64,000 nt of DNA from Natrinema saccharevitans (GTDB lineage: Archaea; Halobacteriota; Halobacteria; Halobacteriales; Natrialbaceae). The notes beneath the pieces were generated by a model, which saw only the letters and a program-made list of their open reading frames with translations, did no database searches and was not told where the DNA came from. Below are positions 4,399-30,377 of the stretch, in pieces. The stretch covers positions 1,984,001 through 2,048,000 of the forward strand of contig NZ_LWLN01000001.1 in NCBI RefSeq assembly GCF_001953745.1. The letters are read 5' to 3'. The translations under genes were made by a program, and so were the position numbers. The number at the start of each line of letters is the position of its first letter. Positions within the stretch are counted from its first letter, which is position 1.

Positions 4399-5214
4399 AT
4401 GAGCGACCCGCTTCCCGAAGCGCGATCGTCGGAGCCGATCACGGTCGAGTCGCTGACGACGGACCTCCGCGACCTCGGCGTGACGGCGGGAGAGACGGTG
4501 CTTGTCCACGGCTCGCTGTCCTCTCTGGGATGGGTCTGTGGCGGCGCTCCTGCCGTGGTCGACGCCCTCCAGCGCGTCGTCGGCGAGGAGGGTACCCTCG
4601 TGATGCCGACGCACTCGCCCGGCAACAGGGACCCCACGAACATGGGGTCCCCGCCGGTCCCCGACTCCTGGTACGACACGGTTCGAGAGGAGATGCCGCC
4701 GTATCGCCCCGCCGCGACGCCGACCCAGGGGATGGGAGCCATCCCCGAGTGTTTCCGCTCGTATCCCGGTGTCCGCCGGAGCGCCCACCCGCAACACTCC
4801 TTCGCCGCGTGGGGGGCCGACGCCGAGTTCGTTACCGAGGAGCACCCGTACGACGACTCGCTCGGCGAATCGTCGCCGCTCGCCCGGCTCTACGAGCTCG
4901 AGAGCCGGGTCCTGTTTCTCGGTACCACTCACGCGACGAACACCTCGCTCCACCTCGCGGAGTATCGCGCGGACATCGACCTCGAGCGGACGAGCCACGC
5001 CAGCGCAGTGATCGTCGACGGCGAACGCGAGTGGGTCGAGTGGGAGGACCTCGACATCGACGACGGCGACTTCCCGGACTGCGGCGAGACGTTCGAACGC
5101 GCCCGCCCGGCCGCGTTCGAAGCCGGCCGGGTGGGCGTCGGCGACGCGAAGCTGCTCGCCCAGCGGCCGCTCGTCGATTTCGCCGTCGAGTGGTTCGAGG
5201 CGAATCGCGGGTAA
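4399..5214 (+). CDS. AAC(3)-family N-acetyltransferase
   Basis: A 271-residue protein matching the Antibiotic_NAT (aminoglycoside 3-N-acetyltransferase) family. Visible motifs are ETVLVHGSLSSLGWVCGG near residue 35, EGTLVMPTHSP, GMGAIPECFRSYPGVRRSAHPQHSF with the family R-S-x-H-P signature, and VLFLGTTHATNTSLHLAEY. The family transfers acetyl from acetyl-CoA to an amino group. In environmental archaea the natural acceptor is generally unknown, so the antibiotic name should be read only as homology. It precedes the Mrp ATPase gene by 112 bp on the same strand, with no reason to assume a shared job. Confidence 0.85.
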   Translation: MSDPLPEARSSEPITVESLTTDLRDLGVTAGETVLVHGSLSSLGWVCGGAPAVVDALQRVVGEEGTLVMPTHSPGNRDPTNMGSPPVPDSWYDTVREEMPPYRPAATPTQGMGAIPECFRSYPGVRRSAHPQHSFAAWGADAEFVTEEHPYDDSLGESSPLARLYELESRVLFLGTTHATNTSLHLAEYRADIDLERTSHASAVIVDGEREWVEWEDLDIDDGDFPDCGETFERARPAAFEAGRVGVGDAKLLAQRPLVDFAVEWFEANRG

Positions 5215-27129: not shown

Positions 27130-27306
27130 CTACTCGAAGCCCGCGAACGTCGCCGGCGGCACCGTACAGCCACAGGGCTGAAGGTGACTCGTGTCGGGGC
27201 CGGTGACGACCGACACTGTCACCGGCTCCCCACAGTTGGGGCAGTCGGGCAGCGACCAGTCGTCGTCGGCGTCCGAATCCCGGTCGTTCGAGCGGTCCCT
27301 AGCCAT
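27130..27306 (-). CDS. Small zinc-ribbon protein, copy 1
   Basis: A 58-residue protein starting MARDRSNDRDSDADDDWSLP. CPNCGEPV and, 16 residues later, QPCGC give two cysteine knuckles and thus a single zinc ribbon; the N-terminus is acidic and flexible. The ATG overlaps the stop of the 35-codon ORF (ATGGCTAG), so translation is probably coupled. The paralogue at 27611-27781 shares CPxCGEPV, SVV, GP and PCGC. Haloarchaea have many such zinc micro-proteins with regulatory or adaptor roles; no specific function is known here. Confidence 0.75.
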   Translation of the reverse strand: MARDRSNDRDSDADDDWSLPDCPNCGEPVTVSVVTGPDTSHLQPCGCTVPPATFAGFE

Positions 27307-27406
27307 CGCAACCACCGCGTGCGGCGCGCAGCGTCGAGACTCGTCGCGTCGGGCGGTTCGTGGGTCGTGCGGGACGTTTATATCCCGGAAGTAGTAACGT
27401 AATCAT
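27299..27406 (-). CDS. 35-residue Pro/Arg-rich small ORF, copy 1
   Basis: ATG at 27406 to TAG at 27299 encodes MITLLLPGYKRPARPTNRP and 16 further residues. The tandem copy (27774-27881) is also 35 residues and shares LPGYKRPARPTNRP. Many differences between them are synonymous third-position changes (CTT/TTA for Leu, CGA/CGG for Arg, AAC/AAT for Asn, GGT/GGC for Gly), which argues for translation. The stop overlaps the zinc-ribbon ATG in both copies. It may be a leader peptide controlling the zinc gene or a partner micro-protein. Confidence 0.6.
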   Translation of the reverse strand: MITLLLPGYKRPARPTNRPTRRVSTLRAARGGCDG

Positions 27407-27414
27407 GGCAACCG

Positions 27415-27502
27415 AATCCCTGTGTGGGATTTGGAAGCCAGTCTCGGGTGCCACTACACCCGGGGCGTTTCGATGCGCCCCCTGTTTCGGAGTCTGACTT
27501 CC
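27415..27502 (-). ncRNA. Candidate structured RNA leader, copy 1
   Basis: Read on the minus strand from 27502, the transcript would form a three-way junction. An outer stem pairs 27490-27502 with 27433-27445 (12 of 13 positions, one as G-U). It encloses two hairpins, 27476-27481 with 27462-27467 (GGGGCG/CGCCCC, 8-nt loop) and 27457-27461 with 27446-27450 (GGGTG/CACCC, 6-nt loop). A further hairpin, 27426-27431 with 27415-27420 (AATCCC/GGGATT), ends 8 nt before the small-ORF ATG. The same stems are kept in copy 2. The strand is inferred from the promoter and downstream genes. Confidence 0.55.
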
Positions 27503-27527
27503 AGTTAGTACGTTTAGCTGTTCGGAC

Positions 27528-27533
27528 TTATAT
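27528..27533 (-). promoter_or_regulatory. Probable TATA box of copy 1
   Basis: The minus strand reads ATATAA here within the 18-base block GGACTTATATCTACTGTT (plus strand), identical in both copies. Its centre is 28 bp from 27502, where the outer stem begins, so the RNA would start with the stem itself. The spacer between box and stem has diverged between copies while keeping its length. Confidence 0.5.
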
Positions 27534-27610
27534 CTACTGTTCGCGCGTGAGAAGAGAGGTCGCTCGAGCGATCCAGAGCGGTGTGTCGGCAGGACTCGAG
27601 TCGGCCCCGA

Positions 27611-27781
27611 CTACTCGCGGTCCATGAGGGTGGTCGGCGACACCGCACAGCCACAGGGCTCGAGGGTGCTCGCGCCGGGACCGATGACGACCGACATCAA
27701 CACCGGTTCGCCACAGCGGGGACAGTTCGGCAGCGGTCCGTCGTCGGCCCCGTCGGACTCGCTCGCGTCGTCCTCAGTCAT
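27611..27781 (-). CDS. Small zinc-ribbon protein, copy 2
   Basis: A 56-residue protein starting MTEDDASESDGADDGPLPNC. It has CPRCGEPV and EPCGC knuckles with SVVIGP between them, matching the copy 1 protein in the core but not in the N- and C-terminal tails. The ATG overlaps the stop of the 35-codon ORF (ATGACTGA). Retention of both cysteine pairs after tail divergence suggests that both paralogues are functional. The function is unknown; a single zinc ion is expected. Confidence 0.75.
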   Translation of the reverse strand: MTEDDASESDGADDGPLPNCPRCGEPVLMSVVIGPGASTLEPCGCAVSPTTLMDRE

Positions 27782-27881
27782 CGTGGCCCCCTCGAGTAGC
27801 TCCCAGCGGCGAGGGTCGTTGCGGCGGGCGATTCGTGGGCCGTGCGGGACGTTTATATCCCGGTAAAATGAACGGAATCAT
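27774..27881 (-). CDS. 35-residue Pro/Arg-rich small ORF, copy 2
   Basis: ATG at 27881 to TGA at 27774 encodes MIPFILPGYKRPARPTNRP and 16 further residues, the same length as copy 1. The shared LPGYKRPARPTNRP core and the synonymous changes support coding. Its stop overlaps the next ATG. No domain is recognised; the Pro/Arg content resembles ribosome-stalling leader peptides, but that is speculation. Confidence 0.6.
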   Translation of the reverse strand: MIPFILPGYKRPARPTNRPPQRPSPLGATRGGHDD

Positions 27882-27889
27882 GGCAACCG

Positions 27890-27978
27890 AATCCCTGTAG
27901 TGGGGATTTGGAAGCCGGTCTCGGGTGTGTACGCACCCGGGGCGTTTCGATGTGCCCCCGTTTCGGAGCCCGACGTCC
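27890..27978 (-). ncRNA. Candidate structured RNA leader, copy 2
   Basis: Same architecture as copy 1: outer stem 27966-27978 with 27910-27922 (11 of 13 paired), hairpins 27953-27958 with 27939-27944 and 27934-27938 with 27923-27927, and a late hairpin 27903-27908 with 27890-27895. Compared with copy 1, one outer-stem pair changes from A-U to G-C, so pairing is kept by covariation. The GGGTG/CACCC stem is unchanged although its six-base loop is entirely different, and the AATCCC/GGGATT stem survives a loop-length change from 5 to 7. One closing pair of the GGGGC hairpin is lost on this strand. Confidence 0.55.
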
Positions 27979-28003
27979 AGTTTGGAACTCTACCGTTTAG
28001 GAC

Positions 28004-28009
28004 TTATAT
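28004..28009 (-). promoter_or_regulatory. Probable TATA box of copy 2
   Basis: Identical to the copy 1 box within the conserved block GGACTTATATCTACTGTT. Its centre is 28 bp from the stem start at 27978. The divergent kinase gene begins 149 bp to the right with its own box. Confidence 0.5.
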
Positions 28010-28127
28010 CTACTGTTAATCGGGTGAAAGAGAGTCCGGTCGAGCGGACTCGCGACGCGTCAGCGCCGATCCCGATGACGAGCGATCCCGACTCGAGGGC
28101 CGTCGCAGGTGATGACCCAGCCACAAT

Positions 28128-28157: not shown

Positions 28158-30377
28158 ATGAGCATTCGGGACGGGCCCCGGTCCGGGGGCGTCTCGATGG
28201 ACGAAATCCGCGTCCTCTACGTGGACGACGAGCCGCAATGGGCCGTAACGACCGCCGAGCTTCTGGACCGACGTGACGTCGCCATCGAGACGCTCAGCGC
28301 GACCTCCGCGAGCGAGGCTCTCGAGTACCTGACCGAGCGCGAAATCGACTGTATCGTCGCCGAGTACGACCTGCCGGACGCCGACGGCCTCGAACTGCTC
28401 GAGGCCGCCCGATCGGAAGTCGACTCGATCCCGTTCCTGCTGTTTACCGGATCGGGCTCGGAAGCGATCGCGAGCGAGGCGATCTCGGCCGGCGTCACGG
28501 ACTACGTCCGGAAAGCCGACGATCCGGATCGGGACGCGGTCCTCGCCGACGCGGTCGTCGACGCCGTCGAGGCGGCCCACGGCCGGCGCAAGCGCGATCG
28601 ACAGCTCCACGCCGTCGAGACCGCACAGGAGGGGATCAGCATCCTCGATTCGAACGGGCGATTCGTCTACGTGAACCGGGCCTACGCGGACCTGTACGGC
28701 TACGAGCCCGCGGCGATGATCGGCGAACACTGGGAGCTGCTCTACCCGGACGACGAGGTCGCGGCCGCTCACGAGGAGATCATTCCGACGGTGATGGCCG
28801 AGGGCGAGTGGCGCGGGGAGACGACGGGGCTCCGGGCCGACGGCAGCACCTTCGTCGAGGCCCACTCGCTGTCGACGACGGGCAACGGCGATCTCATCTG
28901 CACGGTCCAGGATATCACCGACCACAAGGAACGCGAACGCGACCTCGAGCGCTACGAGACGATCATCGAGGCGCTCGGCGATCCGGTCTACACGGTCGAC
29001 GACGACGGACGCTACACCTACGTCAACGACGCTTACGCCGCGATGACCGGCTACGAGAAAGACGAGATCGTCGGGGAGCACGTCTCCGTCCTGCTCGACG
29101 ACGAGTCCGTCGAGCGCGGCGAAGCGACCGTCGAATCGCTGCTGTCGGCGGACACCGACGGCCGCCAATGTACCTACGAGATCACCGTCGAGACGAGCGA
29201 CGGCGAGGCGATTCGGTGTGAGGACAACGTCTCGCTGTTGCCCCTCGCGGACGGCCAGTTCCGCGGCATCGCCGGCGTCGTCCGCGACATTACCGACCGG
29301 GCCGAGCGCGAGCGCGAACTCGAGGAGTACGAGACGATCGTCGAGACGATCCCCGACGAGGTCTACACGCTGGACGCCGAGAGACGCCTCACGAAGGTCG
29401 TCCCGCCGAGCAACGCCGAGGTGACGACGACCGGCTACCGGCCCGCGGAGCTGGTCGGCGAACACGTCTCGCTGATCATGGACGAGGACGACATCGCCAC
29501 CGGCGACCGCGAGATCGGGGCCTTGCTGAACGACCCGGACCGCAGTACCGCCTCCTTCGAGATGGAGACGATCACGAAAGACGGGCAGCGCCGCCCCCAC
29601 GAGAACCACATCGCGATCCTGCCGCTCGACGGGGACGGCCGCTTTCAGGGCACCGTCGGCGTCCTGCGAGACATCAGCGATCGCAAGGAACGCGAGCGCG
29701 AGTTGCGGGCCCAGAACGAGCGCCTCGAGCGCTTTGCGAGTATCGTCTCCCACGACCTCCGGAACCCCCTGAACGTCGCCCAGGGCCGTCTCGAGCAGGC
29801 CCGCGGGACCTGCGACTGCGCCGAGGCCCACCTCGAGGAGGTCGCGTGGGCCCACGACCGAATGAGCGTGTTGATCGAGAACATCCTGACGGTCGCACGC
29901 GAGCGAGACCCGGAGCCCGATCCCGGGCCGATCAGTCTCGCGGCGGTCGTCGACGACTGTTGGGATCACGTCGAGACCGGGGCGGCCGCGTTGCGGGTCG
30001 AAACCGACGCGGTCGTTCGAGCCGATCGGGCGCGGCTCAAGCAGTTGCTCGAGAACCTGCTCCGCAATGCCGTGGACCACGGCGACGCCGACCCCGCGGA
30101 ACCACGCGGCGGCGACCGCCCCGGCGTCACGATCACGGTCGGCGACCGCGAGGGCGGGGACGGCTTCTACGTCGCGGACGACGGCCCGGGAATCCCGCTC
30201 GACGAACGCGAGCGGGTCTTCGAGAGCGGCTACTCGAGCGACGGGGACGGGACCGGGCTCGGACTCGCGATCGTCGAGCGGATCGCGACGGCTCACGGCT
30301 GGACGGCGACGGTCACCGAGAGCGCGGCCGGCGGCGCGCGATTCGAGCTGGCCGGCGTCGACGCTGTCGACCGGTGA
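28158..30377 (+). CDS. Hybrid sensor histidine kinase: receiver, three PAS, HisKA, HATPase
   Basis: A 739-residue soluble kinase. The domains in order are a receiver-like domain (about 15-130), PAS repeats at about 150-265, 270-390 and 390-505, a HisKA domain with FASIVSHDLRNPLNVAQGRL, and HATPase_c (LLENLLRNAVDHGDADP, DDGPGIPLDERERVFE, GTGLGLAIVERIA). No membrane helices are present, so it senses an intracellular signal or redox/ligand state. In the receiver, VLYVDDEPQ gives the acidic pair, but the usual phosphoacceptor aspartate is replaced by glutamate (E69, in CIVAEYDLPDADG). It probably autophosphorylates and passes phosphate to an unlinked regulator. Confidence 0.88.
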   Translation: MSIRDGPRSGGVSMDEIRVLYVDDEPQWAVTTAELLDRRDVAIETLSATSASEALEYLTEREIDCIVAEYDLPDADGLELLEAARSEVDSIPFLLFTGSGSEAIASEAISAGVTDYVRKADDPDRDAVLADAVVDAVEAAHGRRKRDRQLHAVETAQEGISILDSNGRFVYVNRAYADLYGYEPAAMIGEHWELLYPDDEVAAAHEEIIPTVMAEGEWRGETTGLRADGSTFVEAHSLSTTGNGDLICTVQDITDHKERERDLERYETIIEALGDPVYTVDDDGRYTYVNDAYAAMTGYEKDEIVGEHVSVLLDDESVERGEATVESLLSADTDGRQCTYEITVETSDGEAIRCEDNVSLLPLADGQFRGIAGVVRDITDRAERERELEEYETIVETIPDEVYTLDAERRLTKVVPPSNAEVTTTGYRPAELVGEHVSLIMDEDDIATGDREIGALLNDPDRSTASFEMETITKDGQRRPHENHIAILPLDGDGRFQGTVGVLRDISDRKERERELRAQNERLERFASIVSHDLRNPLNVAQGRLEQARGTCDCAEAHLEEVAWAHDRMSVLIENILTVARERDPEPDPGPISLAAVVDDCWDHVETGAAALRVETDAVVRADRARLKQLLENLLRNAVDHGDADPAEPRGGDRPGVTITVGDREGGDGFYVADDGPGIPLDERERVFESGYSSDGDGTGLGLAIVERIATAHGWTATVTESAAGGARFELAGVDAVDR

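Follow-up and report, generated by a model that had tools for sequence, protein, structure and literature searches.

Translational riboswitches with an A–B–A′ layout combine an aptamer-like multi-helix junction with a strand shared by anti-sequestering and sequestering helices, and their output lies at the start region. Just a handful of cis-regulatory RNAs are known or predicted in Archaea (PMC7247131); the archaeal ribosomal-protein leaders, including the S15 leader of Halobacteria (Eckert and Weinberg 2020, PMC7247131), are structured, cis-acting and found by covariation. Here we describe a leader that shares these properties with both groups, in a window of 64,000 nucleotides (nt; the whole stretch of DNA analysed) from the haloarchaeon Natrinema saccharevitans. 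Comparison of homologous copies strongly supports a conserved cis-acting leader with two predicted, mutually exclusive folds at the start codon, and we put at about three in four the probability that it heads a two-gene mRNA as a translational RNA switch.

The element differs from the described translational riboswitches in several ways: it is archaeal and has no known ligand, it abuts the AUG itself without a Shine–Dalgarno role, it precedes dozens of unrelated genes and it extends into the coding region. Unlike the archaeal ribosomal-protein leaders, it does not stand before ribosomal protein genes, although the S15 motif was set apart without an alignment. The downstream genes recall the brz-brb operon of Halobacterium salinarum and its analogues (PMC2253796, PMC3184054), each encoding both a small CPxCG zinc-finger protein and a small basic protein, with overlapping open reading frames (ORFs) in one analogue. 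There the zinc finger comes first and one analogue's mRNA is leaderless, starting at the start codon, whereas here neither bop nor Bat has been established as a neighbour; the likeness is one of description. Rfam 15 gave no match at the gathering or relaxed threshold in the window or in loci L171, L177 and L184 except one attributable to chance (E 0.64, far below its gathering score). No description of this RNA was found in open-licence papers; one relevant structured-RNA survey lies outside that scope, and earlier publication is possible.

Two predicted folds meeting at a start codon

The window carries two tandem units on the minus strand (27130–27535 and 27611–28011), each composed of a TATA-like box, a ~96-nt leader, an ORF1 of 35 codons and an ORF2 that encodes a zinc-ribbon protein. 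The features of copy 1 are as follows.

27526–27535, minus: TATA-like promoter element, minus-strand letters AGATATAAGT
27407–27502, minus: structured leader (A, P4, P3, B, P1, A′), supported by pair counts in alignments A3 and A6 and by a match to covariance model R1 (140 bits; G000:C1:2011359-2011508, minus, which is window 27359–27508)
27496–27502, minus: segment A (GGAAGTC), 5′ strand of P2; standard pairs with B in 97% of cells (90 copies)
27462–27481, minus: hairpin P4 (GGGGCG/CGCCCC); 94% paired in distant homologues, with changes on both sides at 4 of 6 pairs
27446–27461, minus: hairpin P3 (GGGTG/CACCC); 100% paired in 90 copies; in distant homologues the inner GUG/CAC is invariant and the outer pairs covary (one pair with 45 double changes)
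27433–27439, minus: segment B (GGCTTCC), common to two exclusive helices by its complementarity both to A, forming P2, and to A′, forming P1ext
27415–27431, minus: hairpin P1 (AATCCC/GGGATT); compensatory changes across copies at 4 of 4 tested pairs
27407–27413, minus: segment A′ (GGTTGCC), abutting the ORF1 AUG on its 5′ side; partner of B in the alternative fold
27299–27406, minus: ORF1, an open reading frame for a basic microprotein of 35 amino acids (aa) with a conserved N-terminus, MITLLLPGYKRPARPTNRPTRRVSTLRAARGGCDG
27370–27387, minus: hairpin P5 in ORF1 codons 7–13 (CGGGAT-ATAAAC-GTCCCG), with an invariant loop and compensatory changes
27130–27306, minus: ORF2, a zinc-ribbon microprotein of 58 aa (CPNCG...PCGC), with a cysteine pattern invariant in alignment A1

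Throughout Natrialbaceae, A reads GGAAGYC at the 5′ end, B reads GGCUUCC and A′, which immediately precedes the AUG, reads GAAGCC or GUUGCC. Their complementarity implies that B pairing with A would close a three-way junction and that B pairing with A′ would bury the start codon. When B was forced to pair upstream or downstream in 90 copies, the two predicted energies lay 1.9 ± 2.8 kcal/mol apart in a total of about −45, with the upstream (A:B) fold favoured in 68. B and A′ pair at 5.56 of 7 bases, compared with 3.51 when the A′ octamer is shuffled.

The question of exclusive pairing is settled by distant homologues, in which B and A′ vary in concert (GGCUUCC/GGAAGCC-AUG, GGUCUUC/GAAGACC-AUG, GGGUUC/GAACCC-AUG, GGUUUC/GAAACC-AUG and GGGUUUG/CAAACCC-AUG), A′ being the exact complement of B and ending at the AUG. 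Across 25 distant leaders, the A:B and B:A′ stems both exceed all 20,000 dealings of partners; when each A′ type is represented by a single leader, the partner-dealing counts are 19 and 12 of 20,000, respectively. A fixed, non-switching structured leader that protects the mRNA or guides the ribosome to the AUG, P5 then serving as a pause site further on, would fit the predominance of the A:B fold as the minimum-free-energy (MFE) structure in the same 68 copies and the constant distance of P5, ~16 nt 3′ of the AUG. We consider it improbable, as it leaves unexplained both the close balance of the two folds and the 6–7 nt before the AUG that keep their complementarity to B even as the letters co-change across families.

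These pairings extend the preliminary description, made from the two window copies, which had proposed that a last hairpin 8 nt before the small-ORF ATG could gate translation. The spacing is as described (hairpin end 27415, ATG 27406–27404), and the sequences suggest gating through A′, which contacts the AUG as one arm of the exclusive helices. The span then given, 27415–27502, is real but omits A′, which touches the AUG, and P5 inside ORF1.

Covariation and strand

On the minus strand, the MFE structure of copy 1 is the three-way junction plus an additional hairpin (z = −4.4; none of 200 shuffles was equally stable), the fold that had been predicted for both copies and that is weaker in copy 2 (z = −1.7). 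The individual changes reported between the two copies were also found: an A-U to G-C replacement in the outer stem (A3 columns 14/92), retention of the GGGTG/CACCC stem despite a changed loop, and retention of the AATCCC/GGGATT stem with loops of 5 and 7 nt. Two copies alone are weak evidence, as the plus strand folds about as well as the minus strand and copy 2 has a broken pair (GGACGTC); the element is taken to be real because ~130 family copies and many distant homologues show the same fold.

An alignment of 90 diverse Natrialbaceae copies (A3, 28 pairs scored) is 93.5% paired, with 51 double-changed cells compared with 20.1 ± 3.4 in shuffles, and shifting the partner by one column lowers pairing to 54% or 48%. 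Alignment A5 has 48 such cells (22.6 ± 3.8 in shuffles). A6, comprising 90 newly found leaders, has 341 (112.6 ± 9.7), with compensatory changes at 19 of 23 pairs and a covariation of 0.470 compared with 0.206 ± 0.008 in controls (0 of 500). A6 was fitted to the covariance model, whereas A3 and A5 were not. In all three, covariation lies above every shuffle control, the outcome by which the preliminary description proposed that it be judged. RNAalifold returned no structure for the mixed alignment A4 because the helices there are out of register.

Within ORF1, the P5 loop AUAAAC is invariant in 127 copies; pair 8.1/12.2 shows a compensatory G-C to A-U change in 10 copies, and pair 9.1/11.2 varies among U.G, U-A and C-G. 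Genes in the window use TAT 8 times and TAC 62 times, and rare codons such as TAT never vary in the P5 region, a constancy explained by the hairpin; an additional DNA-level role of the region is possible. Across families P5 is only weakly indicated: stems sought in any register surpass the control (8 of 20,000), yet no constant register emerges. Behind the distant leaders (A6 loci, 89 sequences), codons 9–13 are conserved at the position that P5 occupies in Natrialbaceae (A at 10.2, 96%; C at 12.3, 90%; G at 13.1, 98%).

Judging from these alignments, the RNA element is on the minus strand, as the preliminary description had assumed. The assignment follows from the coverage of the region by ORF1, from the excess of G.U over A.C in helix cells (106 versus 18 in A3 and 133 versus 61 in A6, a minus-strand A.C being a plus-strand G.U) and from a minus-strand TATA-like box. 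In 84 and 75 of 90 Natrialbaceae copies, respectively, this box (consensus CAgTAGaTATAAGT) has TATAA or ATATA at −30/−31 relative to the base that begins the leader, and in distant homologues TATA-like matches peak at −30 to −32. Together, TATA spacing and strand asymmetry place the element as a sense-strand mRNA 5′ leader before an ORF in all families.

The plus strand had initially been favoured, with GTTTATATCCC at a promoter-like distance, and was overturned by the same three observations. A divergent plus-strand small RNA beside the zinc-ribbon gene, with promoter TTTATATCCC, was rejected by the strand test and by ORF1 covering the box, and a plus-strand peptide from the ATG at 27405 (MATESL...) by a reading frame broken between copies. 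We regard as highly improbable a plus-strand small RNA, antisense to the leader, transcribed from its own promoter (GTTTATATCCCGG, ~27 nt before a start near 27404). Its box resembles a TATA element well, hardly varies across all copies and retains rare synonymous codons, and the plus strand of the two window copies folds well (z = −3.9 and −2.8). Against this, the A3 G.U pairs favour the minus strand 6:1, the box bases are accounted for by ORF1 and the covarying P5, the box is absent from distant homologues that retain the leader and downstream gene, and an AUG-linked A′ is sensible only on the minus strand. A trans-acting small RNA would likewise be expressed from a promoter of its own and be unconnected to any start codon downstream, but in nearly every leader A′ is in direct contact with the AUG.

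Distribution and downstream genes

Used as a blastn query, copy 1 matched related copies in 70 of the 125 family genomes, frequently with several per genome, and the genome that contains the window has seven strong copies according to a covariance model. Matches to R1 in other families were weak, with differing letters. A second covariance model (R2), built from distant leaders only and with no Natrialbaceae sequences, matched 214 of 391 Halobacteria genomes, representing 68 of 86 genera, and recovered Natrialbaceae copies on the same strand, including five of the seven in the window's genome. Outside the order there was no match; in a phylum-wide sample, 42 of 42 matched genomes belong to the same order. 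Several leaders are plasmid-borne, including one on pHV2 of Haloferax volcanii DS2 (L195 1300-1651; record 4704-4931), which stands before a 75-aa CPVCG protein (WP_004050879.1).

This abundance, with up to at least 7–10 strong copies per genome and many distant copies on plasmids, could suggest a mobile repeat resembling a miniature inverted-repeat transposable element, or a DNA-level element that carries a promoter and folds by chance. We give that reading almost no credence: terminal repeats are lacking, the copies are diverged and orthologous between species (Natrinema species carry orthologous copies), they are always in register with the start codon, and their compensatory changes largely refute it. 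A viral origin was also considered and rejected: searches of viral contigs for the exact core patterns were negative, and a blastn query with a single leader returned nothing in phages.

ORF1 holds up as a genuine reading frame. It is open in 127 of 127 Natrialbaceae copies, with log10 P = −9 for an all-open outcome in shuffled spacers (47 nonredundant spacers). In nearly all copies its stop overlaps the ORF2 start, by 8 nt in 57 copies, by 4 nt (ATGA/GTGA) in 44 and by 11 nt in 15, and ORF2 is always out of its frame. ORF2 has an invariant C..C...PCGC in the 26-member alignment A1 and matches no family in Pfam or NCBIfam above cut-off. Of 88 distant leaders read, almost all have an AUG immediately after A′. 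About half of the proteins encoded behind the leaders resemble zinc binders: zinc-ribbon or SWIM-like patterns occur in 43 of the 88 first ORFs and in 55 of 88 when coupled second ORFs are included; in a nonredundant set the proportion is 27 of 57, compared with 7% in residue-permuted proteins. A CPxCG-related motif has been reported in 8% of very small archaeal proteins (PMC2253796). A second ORF overlaps the first stop by 4 nt behind 35 of 88 leaders.

At L222, L237, L228, L250, L269 and other loci, the leader is followed by a cysteine-containing protein and an overlapping ORF with a conserved 'TDRHHAS...LSGWLRHG...ACHPG' sequence. A RAMP/Cas7-like ('csf1/Cas7-like') reading of this downstream pair, made by eye, was dropped, as sequence searches of NCBIfam, PADLOC and the PDB gave no match.

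The second unit of the window mirrors the first.

28002–28011, minus: TATA-like promoter element, sequence and spacing identical to copy 1
27882–27978, minus: structured leader (R1 match, 128.7 bits; G000:C1:2011834-2011984, minus, which is window 27834–27984)
27774–27881, minus: ORF1 (MIPFILPGYKRPARPTNRPPQRPSPLGATRGGHDD), in the same frame as copy 1, with an 8-nt stop/start overlap with ORF2
27611–27781, minus: ORF2, a zinc-ribbon microprotein of 56 aa homologous to that of copy 1

Divergent to copy 2, on the plus strand, lies a receiver–multi-PAS histidine kinase (28158–30377). Similar kinases flank ~17 other copies and are the sole recurring neighbour; no universal neighbour gene exists among the loci compared. 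Extra tandem leaders with no recognisable ORF2 occur at L008 (2002-2150), a copy that may be decaying, its ORF1 start codon being ACG, and at L064 (second copy).

A candidate switch and its meaning

In the mechanism that we propose, transcription would begin ~30 nt downstream of the TATA box on the minus strand, at segment A or immediately ahead of it. During synthesis A would pair with B, closing the three-way junction around P4 and P3 and leaving A′ and the ORF1 AUG free, the presumed ON state. If that fold were lost or never formed, B and A′ would build a long hairpin ending at the AUG, the presumed OFF state. Initiation at ORF1 would feed translation of ORF2 through the overlapping stop and start. 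Strand, promoter spacing, both pairings, covariation, near-equal energies and the ORF overlap are supported by the comparisons above; from these we infer switching in the cell, its direction, its trigger and the coupling of the two ORFs.

Several points weigh against this mechanism. The OFF fold is predicted to be more stable in 22 of 90 copies, and all energies were computed for 37 °C and 1 M salt rather than 4 M KCl. B is invariant within Natrialbaceae, so that B:A′ covariation is impossible there and complementarity is the sole basis within the family; the GUUGCC form of A′, present in 17 of 90 copies, would pair with B through a U-U internal loop. The evidence as a whole consists of sequence comparison and predicted energies.

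The properties of a riboswitch found here are a sense-strand 5′ leader, a covarying structure and mutually exclusive helices, the last as judged from sequence and energy. Of the riboswitch-like leader first described, the structured leader stands, and the ligand part is unsupported. Because the same P3/P4 core precedes unrelated genes, one common factor or condition is more likely as the signal than each gene's own product. It would probably be a host protein or a small ligand or ion, taken together, and otherwise salt, temperature or folding kinetics. That the leaders form a riboswitch class directly sensing a metal ion such as zinc, or another common cell signal, and controlling, throughout Halobacteria, the translation of many genes for small zinc-binding proteins and of genes of mobile elements, seems unlikely.

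A widespread RNA switch would be unexpected in organisms thought to use structured mRNA leaders little. The predicted bistable design, ending on the start codon in leaders spread over more than half of the Halobacteria genomes searched, brings into view coupled pairs of overlooked microproteins. Because one copy resides on pHV2 of the model organism Haloferax volcanii, the control of leadered, non-Shine–Dalgarno archaeal mRNAs becomes directly testable.
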